From contig PEAM01000021.1 in assembly GCA_002753565.1 (NCBI GenBank), positions 1 through 64,000 of the forward strand: a stretch of 64,000 nt of DNA. Reading direction: 5' to 3'. The notes beneath the pieces were generated by a model that was not told the origin of the DNA, ran no database searches, and saw nothing but the letters and a program-made list of their open reading frames with translations. Shown here one piece after another: positions 6,165-32,364 of the stretch. Source of the DNA: Magnetococcales bacterium. GTDB lineage: Bacteria; Pseudomonadota; Magnetococcia; Magnetococcales; JADFYX01. The translations under genes were made by a program, and so were the position numbers. Position 1 is the first letter of the stretch. The number at the start of each line of letters is the position of its first letter.

Positions 6165-9100
6165 ATGGGTTTTCCAGAAAAGACAGGGCTATACGATCCC
6201 AATTTTGAACATGACGCATGCGGGGTTGGATTCGTGGCCAATATTCGGGGTGAGAAATCCCACGAAATCATTCAACAGGGGCTGACAGTCCTCTGTAACC
6301 TCACCCATCGTGGGGCGGTAGGGGCAGACCCCTTGACGGGTGACGGTGCCGGTATTCTCATCCAGATGCCCGATGCTTTTTTTAAGGCGGAAGCCAAACG
6401 GTTGGGCTTCAAGCTCCCGGCTCAGGGTGCTTACGGCGTTGGAATGATCTTTTTTCCCAAGGATAAAAATCTTCGGGACTCCTGTATTCGCCTGGTTGAG
6501 CAGATGATTGCCGAAGAGGGGCAGATCCTCATCGGCTGGCGGGATGTGCCAATCAGTGCCGATGCCCGAATCGGTTATACAGCCAAAGGAGCCGAACCGG
6601 TTATCCGCCAGGTGATCGTGGCGGGACGGCATCGCCCCAAAAATGCCGACCCCTTATGGCTGGAGAGAAAGCTGTTCATTATTCGGCGGCGGATTGAGAA
6701 TGCCGTGTTGGGGTATGGGGTGGCGGAAACCTCGGCTTTTCACATATCCAGCTTCTCTACCCGCACGCTTCTTTACAAAGGCATGTTTTTAGCGGAGCAG
6801 GTTGGTGAATACTATCCCGACCTGAACGATCCCATGGTGGTTTCGGCCTTTTCCATGGTTCACCAACGCTATTCCACCAATACCTTTCCTACCTGGGATC
6901 TGGCGCAGCCTTTCCGAATGATCTGCCACAACGGCGAGATCAACACCTTGCGGGGGAATATCAACTGGATGCGGGCCAGAGAGGCGGCGCTTTCGTCTCC
7001 GCTGTTTGGTAAAGATATTAAAAAACTTTTTCCCATCGTCCCGGAAGGGATCTCCGACTCCGCCTCTTTTGACCGGGCGTTGGAGTTTTTGGTTGTCAGT
7101 GGCCGGTCTCTGCCTCATGCCATGATGATGATGATCCCGGAAGCGTGGGAAAATCACCAGCAGATGGATGAAGACAGAAAAGGCTTTTATGAGTATCACG
7201 CCTCTATTATGGAGCCATGGGATGGTCCGGCAGCGGTGGCCTTTGCCGATGGTCGCTATATTGGGGCCACTCTGGACAGAAACGGCTTGCGTCCGGCCCG
7301 CTATCAGGTGACCAAAAGCGGTCTGTGCATCATGGCCTCGGAGGCCGGTACCCTCACCTTCCCACCGGAAGAGATTCTTCATAATGGACGGCTTCAGCCA
7401 GGACGGATGTTTGTCATCGACCTGGAAGAGGGCAGAATTATCGATGATGAGGAGATCAAGTCCGGCATTATTGGTCGGCAGCCCTATCGCCAGTGGGTAA
7501 AAGAGGGGCTGATGCCTCTTGAGTCTCTGCCGTCCGGTGGGGCCGAGGTGGTTGAAAAAGAGCCCCTGTTGACCCGACAGAAAACCTTTGGCTACACCGA
7601 AGAAGATCAAAACACCCTGTTGGCCCCCATGGCTATCAGCGGTCAAGAGCCGACTGGTTCCATGGGCAATGATGCGGCTCTGCCGGTTCTGTCTGGTCGT
7701 CCTGTCTTGTTGTTCAACTATTTCAAGCAGCTGTTTGCCCAGGTGACCAACCCCCCCATCGACCCCATTCGGGAAGAGTTGGTGATGAGCCTGCGCATGC
7801 AGTTAGGCTCGGTGGGCAACCTGTTGGAGGAGGAGGCCTCTCATGTGGACCGAATCTCTCTGCAGCAGCCCATTTTAACCAATGAAGAGCTTGAAAAAAT
7901 TCGGGCAGCCAACAGCAAGGGGTTGAAGTCACAGACTTTCTCTACCCTGTTTCCGGTAGCCAATGGGGCCTCTGGGATGAAAGCGGCATTAACGCTGCTG
8001 TTTGATAAGGTATCCCAGTCTCTGATTGAGGGGGTCAACCTGGTTATTCTCAGTGATCGGGGCACCAATGCCGATATGGCTCCCATTCCCATCTTGCTGG
8101 CGGTCTCTGCCATTCACCACAACCTGATTCGGGCCGGGGTTCGCAATCGGGCCAGTATTATTGTCGAGAGCGGCGAGGCCCGTGAGGTCAACCATTTTGC
8201 TCTGCTGGCCGGCTATGGCGCAGGGGCGGTTAACCCTTACCTGGCGTTTGAGACCCTGTCGGACTTAAAACAACAGGGGCTTCTGCCCGACGACCTGACC
8301 GTTGAGAAGGCCCATTATCACTACGTGAAGGCGATCAACAAGGGGATGTTGAAGGTCTTTTCCAAAATGGGTATCTCGACCCTGTTCAGCTATTGTGGCG
8401 CCCAGATTTTTGAAGCGGTTGGTTTGACCCACCAGGTTGTCGAACGCTACTTTACCGGCACGGTATCTCGCATCGAAGGGGTCAACCTGGACGGTATTGC
8501 CCGTGAGACTCTGGCCAGGCATCAAAATGCCTACGGCAAAAACCTCTCCAACCTTCATGCTCTGGAGGTTGGTGGAGATTATAAGCTTCGTGAGGGGGGG
8601 GAAAGCCACATGTGGACCTCGGAGAGTGTCTCCAAGCTCCAGCATGCCTCCCGACAGAACAACTACAGCATGTATCAAGAGTTTGCCAGGCTGATCAACG
8701 AGCGCTCTAAAGATCTCTGCACCCTGCGTGGTCTCTTTGTCCTGAAAAAGAACAGGAAACCGGTTCCACTGGATCAGGTGGAGCCAGCCTCCGAAATTGT
8801 CAAACGTTTTGTGACAGGCGCCATGTCCTACGGCTCCATCTCCAAGGAGGCTCACGAGACCCTGGCGATTGCCATGAACCGTCTGGGTGGTCAATCCAAT
8901 ACTGGGGAGGGGGGGGAAGACCCCGAACGGTTCAAGCCGCGTCCCAATGGAGATTTGGCTCGAAGTGCCATCAAACAGGTGGCCTCTGGACGCTTTGGGG
9001 TCTCCAGCCACTATCTGGTCAACTCCAACGAGATGCAGATTAAAATTGCCCAGGGCGCCAAACCCGGTGAAGGGGGGCAACTACCCGGTCATAAGGTGAA

Positions 9101-10691
9101 CGACGTCATTGCCCGCACCCGCAACACTACACCGGGCGTCACCCTGATCTCTCCACCTCCTCATCATGATATCTACTCCATTGAGGATCTGGCCCAGCTT
9201 ATTTTCGACCTGAAAAATGTCAATCCCGATGGGCGGGTCTCCGTCAAGTTGGTTTCGGAGGTTGGGGTCGGTACGGTGGCGGCTGGTGTCTCCAAGGGAC
9301 ATGCGGATATGATTCTTATCTCCGGTGGGGATGGCGGTACTGGCGCAAGCCCGGTCAGCTCCATCAAACATGCCGGTGGACCCTGGGAGTTGGGGCTGGC
9401 TGAGACACAACAGACTCTGGTCCTCAACGATCTTCGTGGACGGGTCAGGTTGCAGACTGACGGTCAGTTTCGAACCGGTCGGGATGTGGTGATTGCGGCT
9501 CTGTTGGGTGCAGAAGAGTACGGTTTTGCCACAGCTCCCCTGGTGGTTGAAGGGTGTGTCATCATGCGCAAGTGCCATCTGGGCACCTGCCCGGTGGGTG
9601 TGGCAACCCAGGATTTGGGGCTGCGCAAGAAGTTTACCGGTCGTCCTCAACATGTGGTCAACTATTTCTATTTTGTCGCCAATGAAGCCCGTCAAATCAT
9701 GGCAGAGATGGGGTTCCGTACCATTGATGAGATGATTGGGCGGGTGGACTGTATCAACACCAATCCGGCAATTGGCCACTGGAAGGCCAAAGGGTTGGAT
9801 TTTTCCAACATTCTCAAAAAACCGGACGTACCCTCCAATATTGCTGTTCGTCAGATGCAAAAGCAAGAACATGCCATCGACAAGGTGCTGGACCACAAGC
9901 TGATGGAGTTGGCGGACCTGGCTATCGAAACCCTGCAGCCTATCGAAATGCGGCTGCCCATTCTCAATACGGACCGTAGTGTGGGTGCCATGTTGGGGGG
10001 AGCCATCTCCAAGAAGTTTGGAGCCAGTGGTCTTCCAGAGGATACCATTGTCATCCATTTTACCGGGGTAGCCGGGCAGAGCTTTGGGGCCTTTAATGTC
10101 GGGGGTGTCTCTCTTCACGTTAAAGGGAGTGCCAATGACTATGTCGGCAAGGGTATGTCGGGTGGCCGAATTGTTGTCCGACCCCACCCCAAAAGTGACT
10201 TGGTGGCAGAAAAGAATATCATTGTCGGCAACACCCTCCTTTATGGGGCGACCGGTGGCGAGACCTATTTTTGCGGTTTGGCGGGGGAGCGGTTTGCGGT
10301 ACGAAACTCCGGTGCGAAAGCGGTTGTTGAAGGGGTTGGTGATCATGGCTGTGAATACATGACCGGTGGTACGGTTGTGGTTCTAGGCCCTACGGGCCGC
10401 AATTTCGGTGCGGGCATGAGTGGCGGCATTGCTTATGTATGGGATGAAAAAGGTCAGTTCACCTCCCTCTGTAACCCGGCTATGGTCGAGTTGCAGAAAG
10501 TAGAAGATAAAAAGGATGTGACTGAACTCAAGGAGCTAATTTTGAAGCATAAAGAATATACCGGTAGTGCGGTTGCCGAGCGTCTTCTGGCCCATTGGGA
10601 GACAACCGTCTCTCAGTTTGTCAAGGTGATGCCCTATGAGTACAAACGTGTATTGGAGCAGATGAAGGAGCAGGAGGCTGTCAATGGGTAA
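6165..10691 (+). CDS. gltB: Glutamate synthase (NADPH) large subunit
   Basis: GltB hydrolyses glutamine and channels the ammonia to 2-oxoglutarate to form glutamate. Its 1508 residues contain the N-terminal glutaminase domain whose nucleophile is Cys19 (HDACGVGF, exposed after propeptide removal), a central domain, the FMN-binding synthase barrel, and the C-terminal GXGXG beta-helix. Within the synthase domain C-x5-C-x4-C (MRKCHLGTCPVG) binds the 3Fe-4S cluster. It overlaps gltD by eight bases, so the two subunits are co-translated. The order and full length are standard. Confidence 0.97.
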   Translation: MGFPEKTGLYDPNFEHDACGVGFVANIRGEKSHEIIQQGLTVLCNLTHRGAVGADPLTGDGAGILIQMPDAFFKAEAKRLGFKLPAQGAYGVGMIFFPKDKNLRDSCIRLVEQMIAEEGQILIGWRDVPISADARIGYTAKGAEPVIRQVIVAGRHRPKNADPLWLERKLFIIRRRIENAVLGYGVAETSAFHISSFSTRTLLYKGMFLAEQVGEYYPDLNDPMVVSAFSMVHQRYSTNTFPTWDLAQPFRMICHNGEINTLRGNINWMRAREAALSSPLFGKDIKKLFPIVPEGISDSASFDRALEFLVVSGRSLPHAMMMMIPEAWENHQQMDEDRKGFYEYHASIMEPWDGPAAVAFADGRYIGATLDRNGLRPARYQVTKSGLCIMASEAGTLTFPPEEILHNGRLQPGRMFVIDLEEGRIIDDEEIKSGIIGRQPYRQWVKEGLMPLESLPSGGAEVVEKEPLLTRQKTFGYTEEDQNTLLAPMAISGQEPTGSMGNDAALPVLSGRPVLLFNYFKQLFAQVTNPPIDPIREELVMSLRMQLGSVGNLLEEEASHVDRISLQQPILTNEELEKIRAANSKGLKSQTFSTLFPVANGASGMKAALTLLFDKVSQSLIEGVNLVILSDRGTNADMAPIPILLAVSAIHHNLIRAGVRNRASIIVESGEAREVNHFALLAGYGAGAVNPYLAFETLSDLKQQGLLPDDLTVEKAHYHYVKAINKGMLKVFSKMGISTLFSYCGAQIFEAVGLTHQVVERYFTGTVSRIEGVNLDGIARETLARHQNAYGKNLSNLHALEVGGDYKLREGGESHMWTSESVSKLQHASRQNNYSMYQEFARLINERSKDLCTLRGLFVLKKNRKPVPLDQVEPASEIVKRFVTGAMSYGSISKEAHETLAIAMNRLGGQSNTGEGGEDPERFKPRPNGDLARSAIKQVASGRFGVSSHYLVNSNEMQIKIAQGAKPGEGGQLPGHKVNDVIARTRNTTPGVTLISPPPHHDIYSIEDLAQLIFDLKNVNPDGRVSVKLVSEVGVGTVAAGVSKGHADMILISGGDGGTGASPVSSIKHAGGPWELGLAETQQTLVLNDLRGRVRLQTDGQFRTGRDVVIAALLGAEEYGFATAPLVVEGCVIMRKCHLGTCPVGVATQDLGLRKKFTGRPQHVVNYFYFVANEARQIMAEMGFRTIDEMIGRVDCINTNPAIGHWKAKGLDFSNILKKPDVPSNIAVRQMQKQEHAIDKVLDHKLMELADLAIETLQPIEMRLPILNTDRSVGAMLGGAISKKFGASGLPEDTIVIHFTGVAGQSFGAFNVGGVSLHVKGSANDYVGKGMSGGRIVVRPHPKSDLVAEKNIIVGNTLLYGATGGETYFCGLAGERFAVRNSGAKAVVEGVGDHGCEYMTGGTVVVLGPTGRNFGAGMSGGIAYVWDEKGQFTSLCNPAMVELQKVEDKKDVTELKELILKHKEYTGSAVAERLLAHWETTVSQFVKVMPYEYKRVLEQMKEQEAVNG

Positions 10692-29272: not shown

Positions 29273-30724
29273 TCAAATAAAGGGGGGTGGCTCACCTCGG
29301 CCACTGGCTCTAAACTCTTTTTTGATCAGGGAGGCCGCCTTTTGTTGATCAACCTGCATTACTTCCATCATGCCTTGATAGACCAGCTCAAAGAGCCGCA
29401 TCAGGGCAATTTTATGGGTTCGTCCGGTGGTGGCGAAGAGCCAGTCGCTTAAGTGTAGAAAATCTTCAAAGGGGGAGGGGCGTTGGATCAGGTGGTGGCG
29501 AAAGGCAGAAAAGCGCCCCGAGTTACCAATCAGATCCCAATAGCGTGCCAAGCGTCGCAGCCGTTGCAGGGTGGGAAAATCCAGGGTATCACTGCTGAGA
29601 AGGTCGTAGGGAGGGTCTGGATTGAAGAGCAGATTAAACGGTGCGGCATGGTCAACGATGGGGGTGCCTCGCAACCGTTTGAGAATGCCAACCTGGATAT
29701 CCTGAGGGTTGATTTTAACAAGGCGGTCAAAACTTGCTTGAATGCTCTCCAGACTCTCACCAGGAAGCCCCAGAATGAGATCGGCATGGATATGGGCGTG
29801 GCTCTGTTGAACCAGCCATTTGAGGTTCTCTTCCGACTTTTCGTTCTCCTGTTTTCGACCAATGCGGGAGAGGACGGTCTGGTTGAAGGTTTGAATACCC
29901 ACCTCCAACTGTAGCCCTCCTTGGGGAAATTGGGCGATCCGCTGACGGATTGCCTCGGGTAGTCGGTCGGGGACAACCTCAAAATGGAGGAAAATATCCC
30001 GCTCGGGTCGGTGGAGAAAAAAGTCCAGAATGGTGGTGGCGCTCTCTATCTTAAGATTAAAAGTGCGGTCCATAAACTTAAACTGCCGCACCCCCCGGTC
30101 GAGAAGGTGGGCCATCTCCTCCAGGAAGGGGGCCAGAGGAAACGAGCGGACCTGGTCATCGAGAGCCGACAGGCAGAAGGCGCAGCGATATGGACAGCCT
30201 CGAGAGGCCTCCACATAGATTACACGATGGGCGATATCCTCGGCTGTATACTCCCGATAGGGCAGGGTGAGTTGGTTTAGGTCGGGAAGAGGGGCTTGGA
30301 TCTGCCGGTTGGGTGGCGGGGTGCCTGCCAGCAGTTGGCGACAGAGCGTCAAGAACGCCACCTCTCCCTCACCAGCGACAACATAATCTGCCAGCGTAAT
30401 AATGGGCTGTTGCTCCTGTTCATGGCTCACCTCCGGCCCGCCCAGAACCACAACAAGCGAAGGGTTGATACGCTTGAGCAGCCGGATTAACTGGCTGGAG
30501 GGTGAAATATTCCAGATGGAGAGGCTGATTCCAACTATCTGCGGCTTTTGGGCCAGAATTATTTCGGCAATATCCAGCGGGCGTTGGCTGATATCAAACT
30601 CGATAATCCGGCTTCTTGGCTGCAGCTCCTGGAGGTTGGCTCGGAGATAACGCAGGCCGATGGCGGCATGTCGATAGCGGGCGTTCAGGGTGGTTAGGAG
30701 AATATCCGTTGTCTGGTGGGTCAT
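29273..30724 (-). CDS. B12-binding radical SAM protein (DUF4080 type)
   Basis: 483 residues. The N-terminal 130 residues form a cobalamin-binding-like Rossmann domain (VVVLGGPEVSHE, then ADYVVAGEGE). The radical SAM domain carries the 4Fe-4S motif SRGCPYRCAFC (C-x3-C-x2-C) near residue 180, followed by the TIM-barrel motifs. The C-terminal 100 residues match what is usually annotated DUF4080. The substrate is unknown. The upstream neighbour rsmA lies 75 bases away in the same direction and could be co-transcribed after it. The start ATG 30724 gives normal length. Confidence 0.85.
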   Translation of the reverse strand: MTHQTTDILLTTLNARYRHAAIGLRYLRANLQELQPRSRIIEFDISQRPLDIAEIILAQKPQIVGISLSIWNISPSSQLIRLLKRINPSLVVVLGGPEVSHEQEQQPIITLADYVVAGEGEVAFLTLCRQLLAGTPPPNRQIQAPLPDLNQLTLPYREYTAEDIAHRVIYVEASRGCPYRCAFCLSALDDQVRSFPLAPFLEEMAHLLDRGVRQFKFMDRTFNLKIESATTILDFFLHRPERDIFLHFEVVPDRLPEAIRQRIAQFPQGGLQLEVGIQTFNQTVLSRIGRKQENEKSEENLKWLVQQSHAHIHADLILGLPGESLESIQASFDRLVKINPQDIQVGILKRLRGTPIVDHAAPFNLLFNPDPPYDLLSSDTLDFPTLQRLRRLARYWDLIGNSGRFSAFRHHLIQRPSPFEDFLHLSDWLFATTGRTHKIALMRLFELVYQGMMEVMQVDQQKAASLIKKEFRASGRGEPPPFI

Positions 30725-30897
30725 AGGCTGTCTGCTTTTTTATCTCTGGTACAAGAGGTTTTAACGCCCTAAAATGGGGGCATTATCATCCTGAAGTGAT
30801 GGTTTGGGAGGTGTGGTGGATCAACCTTCCCCAACCTCTTGATTAACCTATTTTAACCAAAAACAGTCCAATTACAATGCCTGGAGGAGGTATCGAG

Positions 30898-32364
30898 ATG
30901 GGGGAGAGGGTGTCATTGGGAGAGTCTGTTGCTCTGAGTTTGGCCATGAGCAGACAGTTTGCCACCCTTTCTGGTGATGGCAACCCCCTCCATCTGGACC
31001 CGGAGCAGGCCCGCCGCCTCCCTTTTGGTTCATCGGTGGTCCATGGTCTGCATCTGGTTATGCTGGCCTTGAACAGCCTTTATGCTTGCCTGGGTCAGGT
31101 TGGACCTCTGGTTAAGCTGAGTGTACGTTTTAGTCAGCCGGTTCGCCACACTGACCCTTTTACCTTCCGGGTAGAGCTATCCCAACAGGGGCTGTTTACC
31201 ATTGATGTGCTGGTGGAGGAGAAGCGGGTGGCTACCCTTCGTGGTGTCTTGTCGGCCTCGGTATCGGCTGAAGAGATAGGGCCAGGGCTTGTGGCGACGG
31301 TGCCGGCAGAGGAGCCGAGCCACCCTCTGGGGTGGGATGATCTGTCCGGACTTTCCGGTTGCACCCCTTTGTATTGGGAGCCGGCTCTGGCTGCGGAACT
31401 TTTCCCCCTGGTTGCTCGCCACCTTCCGGCTGAACAGGGGGCTTTTTTGCTCTCCCTTACCCGCATTGTTGGCTGCTACTGTCCGGGGCTTCATTCGGTG
31501 TTTAGCGGTTTTGATGTTGAGTTTGCCCAGAAAGGGATGTCGTTGGCAGCCGGGGTCTCTTATCGGGTTCAGCGCTGTGAAGCCCGGTTTAATTGGGTGC
31601 AGATTGGTGTGGAGAGTCCGGTTGCCTGTGGTACTCTCAACACCTTTTTCCGCTCACCAGCGGTGGAGCAAGCCTCTTGTGTTCAGGTAAAAGCGTTGGT
31701 TGCACCCAACCTGTATGGTAACCGTCGGGTGGTGGTGGTGGGAGGGGGGCGTGGTTTGGGAGAGGTGGTTGCCAAAATTGTCTCAGCCGGAGGAGGGGAG
31801 GTTACCCTCACCTACCACCAGGGTCTTGCGGATGCCCTTCGGGTGGTGGATGAAATTACCCAAGAAGGGGGGCGGGCCAGGGCTGTTGGGCTGGATGTGC
31901 TCTCTAAGGATGAAGAGATTTTGCGCCCTCTCCGGGCGGGGGAGCCGTTTGAGGCACTCTTCTATTTTGCCACACCCCGGATTGACCTGAATGCCTGGAG
32001 CCCATGGCGTCGGGATCTGTTCAACCACTACTGTCGCTACTATCTGGATGGTTTTCTCAGGCTGGCTCAGCCCCTTGTCGAGCAATCGGCTCAGCAGAAG
32101 AAGAGGTTGGTTCTGGTGCAGCCCAGCACCATTTTTGTTCAGCAACCAGAGCGGGGTGCGGCAGAGTATGCCGCTGCCAAGGCCGCGCTGGAGACCATGG
32201 CTGCCCATCTGCAGGCAAGCCATACCCATCTTGAGCTTTTAACCCCGCGCCTCGATCGTCTTCGTACCGACCAGACCGCTTCCCTGGATGAGAGCCGATG
32301 CGCGACTGCCCTGCCGGTGATGATCGATCTGGTCAACCGGGCCTTGCTTGGCCGGACGTGCTGA
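30898..32364 (+). CDS. Double hotdog (MaoC-like) and SDR fusion protein
   Basis: 488 residues from ATG 30898, seven bases after GGAGGAGG. Residues 1-125 are a MaoC-like hydratase domain with the Asp/His dyad region GDGNPLHLDPEQA and PFGSSVVHG. Residues 140-270 look like a second hotdog half lacking that dyad (DVEFAQKGMSLAAGVSYRV). Residues 285-485 are a short-chain dehydrogenase with GGGRGLGE cofactor loop and catalytic YAAAK. Together these could hydrate an enoyl-thioester and oxidise or reduce the 3-hydroxy product. The order is the reverse of eukaryotic MFE-2. The start site and position before livK do not reveal the pathway. Confidence 0.8.
   Translation: MGERVSLGESVALSLAMSRQFATLSGDGNPLHLDPEQARRLPFGSSVVHGLHLVMLALNSLYACLGQVGPLVKLSVRFSQPVRHTDPFTFRVELSQQGLFTIDVLVEEKRVATLRGVLSASVSAEEIGPGLVATVPAEEPSHPLGWDDLSGLSGCTPLYWEPALAAELFPLVARHLPAEQGAFLLSLTRIVGCYCPGLHSVFSGFDVEFAQKGMSLAAGVSYRVQRCEARFNWVQIGVESPVACGTLNTFFRSPAVEQASCVQVKALVAPNLYGNRRVVVVGGGRGLGEVVAKIVSAGGGEVTLTYHQGLADALRVVDEITQEGGRARAVGLDVLSKDEEILRPLRAGEPFEALFYFATPRIDLNAWSPWRRDLFNHYCRYYLDGFLRLAQPLVEQSAQQKKRLVLVQPSTIFVQQPERGAAEYAAAKAALETMAAHLQASHTHLELLTPRLDRLRTDQTASLDESRCATALPVMIDLVNRALLGRTC

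Follow-up and report, generated by a model that had tools for sequence, protein, structure and literature searches.

A hotdog-hotdog-SDR protein from Magnetococcales, a candidate dehydratase-reductase for FkbH-fed acylation of surface sugars

The window, the whole 64,000-nucleotide stretch of Magnetococcales DNA analysed here, encodes a 488-residue protein (30898–32364, + strand, an intact reading frame) in which two hotdog domains are followed by an SDR domain. This hotdog-hotdog-SDR chain is real and more than a product of chance, because the three-part order recurs across Magnetococcales and in many phyla. Relatives were found beside genes for FkbH (glyceryl-ACP synthase family), and we hold with good confidence that the protein is involved with an FkbH-derived acyl-ACP. 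As to its function, the reading we favour, and to which we give about an even chance, is that it dehydrates and reduces an ACP-bound acyl group in a pathway that is supplied by FkbH and acylates surface sugars, the likeliest route running from glyceryl-ACP through pyruvyl-ACP to lactyl-ACP. A small acid is probably reshaped before being transferred to surface sugars, perhaps from glycerate to lactate.

Gene and domain architecture

The start of the gene was placed at the ATG at 30898 rather than at an alternative in-frame ATG at 30877, because a Shine-Dalgarno-like GGAGGAGG, read directly from the sequence at 30883–30890 (+) and 7 bases 5' of the downstream codon, directly precedes it; with the upstream start, GGAGGAGG would fall inside the gene. 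Hotdog 1 (residues 1–120, 30898–31257, +), the MaoC/hydratase-2 half with an SGDxNPxH motif, was delimited by Pfam MaoC (residues 5–99, 55 bits, cut-off 27), by predicted structure and by profile matching, in which PhaJ-type (R)-specific enoyl-CoA hydratase 1iq6 gave 61 bits. Its catalytic dyad motif, DGNPLH, runs from Asp27 to His32 (30976–30993, +). Hotdog 2 (residues 150–254, 31345–31659, +), defined by predicted structure and conservation, lacks the dyad and carries the family motif VGMxCPGLHS; this middle part of the protein had no Pfam match. The ketoreductase-like SDR domain (residues 272–486, 31711–32355, +) was recognised by Pfam adh_short (residues 277–440, 31.5 bits, cut-off 26.6) and by a structure match over residues 267–486. 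It contains the nucleotide-binding loop GGGRGLG (residues 282–288, 31741–31761, +) and the catalytic Ser410 together with Tyr424-AAA-Lys428 (32125–32181, +), the latter forming YAAAK at residues 424–428. No NCBIfam model reached its own cut-off among the best 25 of 118 matches to the protein.

Conservation was assessed in an alignment of 32 rows, comprising the window protein and 31 named relatives, and loss of catalytic residues, which the preliminary description had named as grounds for giving up its reading, was examined there. D27, N29, P30, H32, D34 and H49 are invariant (32/32), and hotdog 1 has the fold and the Asp/His dyad within GDxNPxH that characterise MaoC-type (hydratase 2) dehydratases. 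In the SDR domain, S410 and K428 are found in all 32 rows and Y424 in 30, the other two having Phe; G282, G286 and G288 are likewise invariant, and both the Rossmann Gly-rich loop and the Ser-Tyr-xxx-Lys set expected of an SDR are present. The N-terminal part of hotdog 2 shows no conserved Asp/His pair among the relatives, and VGMxCPGLHS is kept. With the register set by a match to a FabG, the position of the classical tetrad Asn is occupied by Tyr382 (Tyr in 31/32 rows) and the NNAG segment reads YFATP; for these two reasons the domain is, judged by its sequence, an atypical SDR lacking the classical tetrad Asn and NNAG motif. R285, the Arg of a GGxRGxGE motif, is conserved in 30 of 32 rows. 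An Arg at this place is the pattern usual for NADPH-using reductases, and a reductase consequently fits better than the 3-hydroxyacyl dehydrogenase proposed at the outset.

An AlphaFold2 model of the whole chain had a pLDDT of 92.3 and a pTM of 0.89. A Foldseek search with it returned the MaoC-like dehydratase 5i7n as the top match, followed mostly by SDRs. Because the SDR part dominated the structural alignment search with the whole protein, the hotdog part (residues 1–271) was also modelled alone (pLDDT 91.9). Among the matches listed, residues 1–252 aligned with the double-hotdog dehydratases 5i7n (Z 20.4, 3.0 Å, 228 residues aligned) and 4v12 (Z 19.8), and residues 1–258 with MeaC (Z 19.4); the SDR part aligned with solved SDRs at Z of about 25 and 2.3–2.6 Å over 215–219 residues in the top three of the matches listed. 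The three domain assignments of the preliminary description, an active-looking MaoC-like hydratase, a second hotdog half without the dyad and an SDR with YAAAK, were all borne out, and the predicted structure that it had proposed as a check indeed takes the form of a double hotdog.

The closest fold over residues 1–252, among the matches listed, is that of the MaoC/HadAB-type double-hotdog dehydratases 5i7n and 4v12. These are chains of 325 and 337 residues without an SDR, and their motif-bearing half is C-terminal (221–265 and 222–266), opposite to that of the window protein. A double hotdog with SGDxNPxH and an SDR are joined in one chain in MFE-2 (hydratase 2 structures 1s9c and 3oml). In MFE-2 the SDR comes first, and in 3oml it is matched at 17–87 and MaoC at 499–575, whereas in the window protein the hotdogs come first and the SDR last, a reversal of the eukaryotic order that had been noted correctly beforehand. 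The MFE-2 dyad motif lies in the C-terminal hotdog half (1s9c 183–281, 3oml 488–594), whereas that of the window protein lies in the N-terminal half. On account of these two differences, in domain order and in which hotdog half is active, the window protein is not MFE-2; the context also differs, being CoA for MFE-2 and ACP/FkbH for the present family. A bacterial pairing of enoyl-CoA hydratase 2 with 3-hydroxyacyl-CoA dehydrogenase, MFE-2-like in activity, or a FabZ/FabG-like pair for a 3-hydroxyacyl group such as 3-hydroxybutyryl, would agree with the fold matches to double-hotdog dehydratases and FabG-like SDRs. We regard it as improbable: the architecture argues against its MFE-2-like form, and by eye no ketosynthase, acyl-CoA dehydrogenase or thiolase recurs among the family neighbours listed, where FkbH does.

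Spread of the family and its gene neighbourhoods

Searching 61 genomes yielded full-length relatives with the same domain order and 34–41% identity. Within the order Magnetococcales, 14 full-length copies are present in 11 of 48 genomes, and a twelfth genome has a truncated copy. Of 398 genomes from the phylum searched with an alignment, 19 gave a match, and four of these lie outside the order (G123, G284, G372 and G395, the match in G284 being weak and partial). When contigs of named genomes were scanned with the single window protein no relatives were found; the scan with the alignment found them, returning 80 loci from many phyla. The 38 best-matching loci contained 34 single three-part ORFs, one of them cut by a contig end; L120, L123, L127 and L130, where no single ORF scored, are not among the 34, although FkbH, ACP and MBOAT genes are present at L123. 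The named loci belong to Pseudomonadota, Acidobacteriota, Planctomycetota, Nitrospirota, Thermodesulfobacteriota, Myxococcota, Chloroflexota, Omnitrophota, Gemmatimonadota and Actinomycetota. At L056 (contig G008:C97, 1–1300), pieces of a family gene and of FkbH lie on both strands near the contig end, representing a pseudogene or a misassembly.

An FkbH gene lies within 5 kb in 38 of 52 family loci, the set from which a partial 53rd row (L178, 286 aa, 78 bits) was excluded. The positives are 26 of the 34 named ORFs, 9 of 14 loci in the window's order (a set that includes the window copy as a negative) and three of the four additional loci L174–L177; some of the 14 loci without FkbH within 5 kb sit on short contigs. 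The initial FkbH calls came from phmmer with six or seven queries, and all 38 positives were then found to match TIGR01686 with E values of 1e-20 or better. When the 38 proteins were aligned, the HAD Asp-x-Asp and one Cys were invariant. As controls we used the other 42 of the 80 loci, which are partial matches, mostly to the MaoC domain, with most match positions taken as 9001–9300 of the locus; FkbH, called here by phmmer only, was nearby in 2 of the 42 (Fisher p 3e-11 for 26/34 vs 2/42). Both control positives, L142 and L150, also carry other cassette genes, and the L150 match extends into the SDR; the two may be distant family members. Co-occurrence with FkbH at the genome level within the order was weak (12/12 family genomes vs 27/36, p 0.09).

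ACP genes lie within 5 kb in 17 of the 34 named loci, and an acyltransferase of the kinds queried (e.g., MBOAT, AAC(3)-like or GNAT) was counted by hand nearby in 13. Example FkbH neighbours scored 325.6, 276.8 and 305.2 bits against a profile cut-off of 146.65; example PP-binding ACPs fell in some cases just over and in others just under their cut-off, and example acyltransferases scored 100.8 (MBOAT), 162.6 (AAC(3)), 86.6 (WcbI) and 80.3 (Acyl_transf_3). A polysaccharide deacetylase-like gene occurs within 5 kb in six loci, five of them named (one weak) and the sixth L038. An independent annotation of a Niveispirillum cyanobacteriorum plasmid gives the order HAD-IIIC phosphatase, ACP, WcbI putative acetyltransferase and family protein, the last under a name of the kind "SDR family oxidoreductase"; genes for transposases and recombinases surround this compact cassette.

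Because FkbH is near 38 of 52 loci, many of which also have an ACP and a sugar- or polysaccharide-type acyltransferase, the substrate is very probably a short, FkbH-derived acyl group carried on an ACP, rather than an enoyl-CoA of fatty-acid metabolism. The preliminary description had left the substrate open. The relatives largely answer that question, though the window copy itself has no FkbH close by. The acyl group may vary within the family, given that at L117 (5019–9595, +, a Pirellulales genome), where no FkbH was found within 5 kb, the family gene is followed by genes for an ACP, an AMP-ligase and LuxE. A four-gene FkbH-ACP-WcbI-family cassette at L174 (6924–11404, +) lies on a plasmid amid Tn3, IS66 and recombinase genes, and is likely mobile.

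The window copy within its own genome

The window gene has a B12 radical-SAM gene on the – strand to one side and a liv ABC transporter operon to the other (names assigned by eye), and is an orphan: within 5 kb there is neither an FkbH nor an ACP gene, nor an acyltransferase gene of any kind queried. The radical-SAM protein (29273–30724, –), of the B12-binding type by eye, is present in 21 of 26 genomes searched, its own included. Flank synteny was uninformative, as in each of the 16 relatives with both, the radical-SAM and liv binding-protein genes lie on separate contigs. In the tree, from which the partial L125 was left out and in which bootstrap is unsettled and many forks remain open, the window copy pairs with its closest relative, L031 (40% identity, support 100/99), whose gene order is ACP-FkbH-family-MBOAT-SGNH. 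The next neighbours, L035, L032 and L034, have less support and all lie beside FkbH.

Contig C76 carries the only FkbH of the genome that contains the window (327.8 bits, with DLDNTLW intact), with an AAC(3)-like gene upstream and an ACP gene downstream, the ACP scoring 20.6 against a cut-off of 20.8; no MBOAT was found in this genome. Apart from the window gene this genome has no MaoC-SDR; one other MaoC ORF encodes 149 aa. Among the loci compared, the closest relatives of the C76 FkbH are at L045 and L049 (52–53% identity), and these two loci also hold a two-domain MaoC-SDR gene, which the window's genome is without. The simplest reading is that the window copy would work in trans with the single FkbH-ACP-AAC(3) locus. 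A decaying orphan without a present role would suit the missing cassette, the 14 family loci that likewise lack a nearby FkbH and the broken family pieces on G008:C97. We consider this quite unlikely, however, as the window copy has an unbroken reading frame, a good ribosome site and every catalytic residue, and FkbH and ACP persist in the genome.

Proposed chemistry and related systems

In the FkbH-fed route that we favour, FkbH would use 1,3-bisphosphoglycerate to charge a small ACP with glyceryl. Glyceryl-ACP would then be dehydrated by the active N-terminal hotdog to 2-hydroxyacrylyl-ACP, the enol of pyruvyl-ACP, through loss of the 3-OH and the 2-H; this is the MaoC dehydratase reaction, glyceryl carrying hydroxyls at both the 2 and the 3 position. 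The SDR would reduce pyruvyl-ACP with NADPH to lactyl-ACP, and the route would employ both active sites in order and require no further enzyme. Finally, a membrane or cytosolic acyltransferase (MBOAT, WcbI, AAC(3)-like or GNAT) would move the acyl group to a surface sugar in a Dlt-like manner, the sugar being the presumed acceptor. The earlier proposal that one chain could carry an acyl-thioester through two successive steps is thereby supported in outline; the chemistry itself we infer, and our confidence in the exact glyceryl-to-lactyl conversion is evenly balanced. Glyceryl supplied by FkbH may instead have a different fate.

A biochemical precedent is the bryostatin BryA loading module, which combines FkbH with DH/KR and provides a lactyl starter. 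There too, dehydration plus ketoreduction would turn glyceryl into lactyl on an ACP, but BryA uses modular PKS domains and has no separate MaoC-type chain. Mycobacterium glycolipids bearing lactyl-type amides are named here as a guess only. In DltABCD D-alanylation, a 2-substituted propionyl group is ACP-bound, as is proposed for the window family. The MBOAT at L031 is DltB-like (185 bits, below the equivalog cut-off of 375), and by eye its neighbour is an SGNH-like partner gene, a copy without a Pfam match. The combination of MBOAT, SGNH partner and ACP thus occurs in some relatives such as L031, and is absent from the window's own genome, which has no MBOAT. The family differs from Dlt in that FkbH replaces the AMP-ligase DltA, an extra tailoring enzyme is present and the acyl group is likely hydroxyacyl, not aminoacyl.

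The glycerate-activating role of FkbH is described in an excerpt of PMC8949500 and also in PMC4979870, and a pathway-reconstruction tool, in the excerpt of PMC7901079, assigns to FkbH loading the net product D-lactate-ACP. Glyceryl cassettes of tetronates, methoxymalonyl-ACP and vioprolide, as far as excerpted accounts describe them, resemble the family loci in that a three-carbon unit is loaded by FkbH together with an ACP or T domain. Those cassettes feed polyketide or peptide lines, whereas in the window family FkbH and ACP are accompanied by acyltransferases of the polysaccharide type and by the double-hotdog-SDR protein as tailoring enzyme. A hint that FkbH chemistry may feed glycans comes from a flagellar-glycan locus of Campylobacter jejuni (background appears in an excerpt of PMC3068675). 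According to an excerpt of PMC7099621, a strain in which the fkbH-domain gene cj1302 is a pseudogene is without dimethylglyceric-acid sugars; another strain is also without these sugars, and that excerpt does not report loss of cj1302 for it. The literature searched held no paper linking FkbH with MaoC, or FkbH with glyceryl, lactyl, ketoreductase and dehydratase.

The same genomic link to FkbH is shared by a less probable alternative, to which we nevertheless give some weight, in which an FkbH-derived acyl-ACP undergoes other chemistry: the SDR would oxidise glyceryl-ACP at its C3 hydroxyl, as happens when methoxymalonyl-ACP is formed, or would set stereochemistry, and the hotdogs would serve for binding or hydration instead of dehydration. 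For tetromadurin and FK520-type pathways, oxidation of glyceryl-ACP by dehydrogenases has been proposed (excerpt of PMC7489565). Against this, no second oxidation enzyme was seen by eye as a regular neighbour among the neighbours listed, and the NADPH-type Arg (30/32) and the intact dehydratase dyad (32/32) fit dehydration plus reduction.

Taking the glyceryl-to-lactyl route more broadly, we tentatively propose, with somewhat more doubt than belief, a widespread and apparently undescribed acylation of surface sugars, in which FkbH, ACP and the double-hotdog-SDR protein would make lactyl-ACP and interchangeable acyltransferases would place the group onto polysaccharides or amino sugars. Such a system would parallel D-alanylation, with a hydroxyacyl group in place of the alanyl group, and would travel on plasmids and across phyla. 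If so, a protein annotated merely as "SDR family oxidoreductase" would mark a common glycan decoration with a glycolysis-derived short hydroxyacid, and the family gene would predict, at the gene level, short-hydroxyacid groups on surface glycans. The protein itself would act on ACP-bound three-carbon units as a free-standing dehydratase-reductase, and would show that a pair of activities resembling that of MFE-2 can be assembled in reverse, with both the domain order and the active half of the double hotdog swapped.

Two-domain MaoC-SDR chains also adjoin FkbH, at L045, L046, L049, L057 and L064. At L064 (1948–5917, +), AAC(3) and FkbH are fused in one chain according to Pfam, and a 494-aa MaoC-SDR chain follows whose C-terminus is ACP-like (PP-binding, 15.5 bits, under the cut-off); L067 (814–4855, –) has a like-looking 848-aa chain with the FkbH motif, followed by a 509-aa MaoC-SDR chain. 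An apparent MaoC-SDR-FkbH fusion in a 1016-aa frame at L060 (5962–9012, –) was rejected: by eye, and by comparison with L057, where the genes are separate, a frameshift in the MaoC-SDR gene lets the frame continue into the FkbH gene that follows. FkbH domains were also observed in frames of NRPS/PKS size (2,600–2,770 aa) at L063 (7434–15527, +) and on contigs G025:C45, G029:C2, G030:C17 and G043:C111, and a stand-alone FkbH in a frame of 349–443 aa is present as well in four of the five genomes with such frames (G024, G029, G030 and G043).
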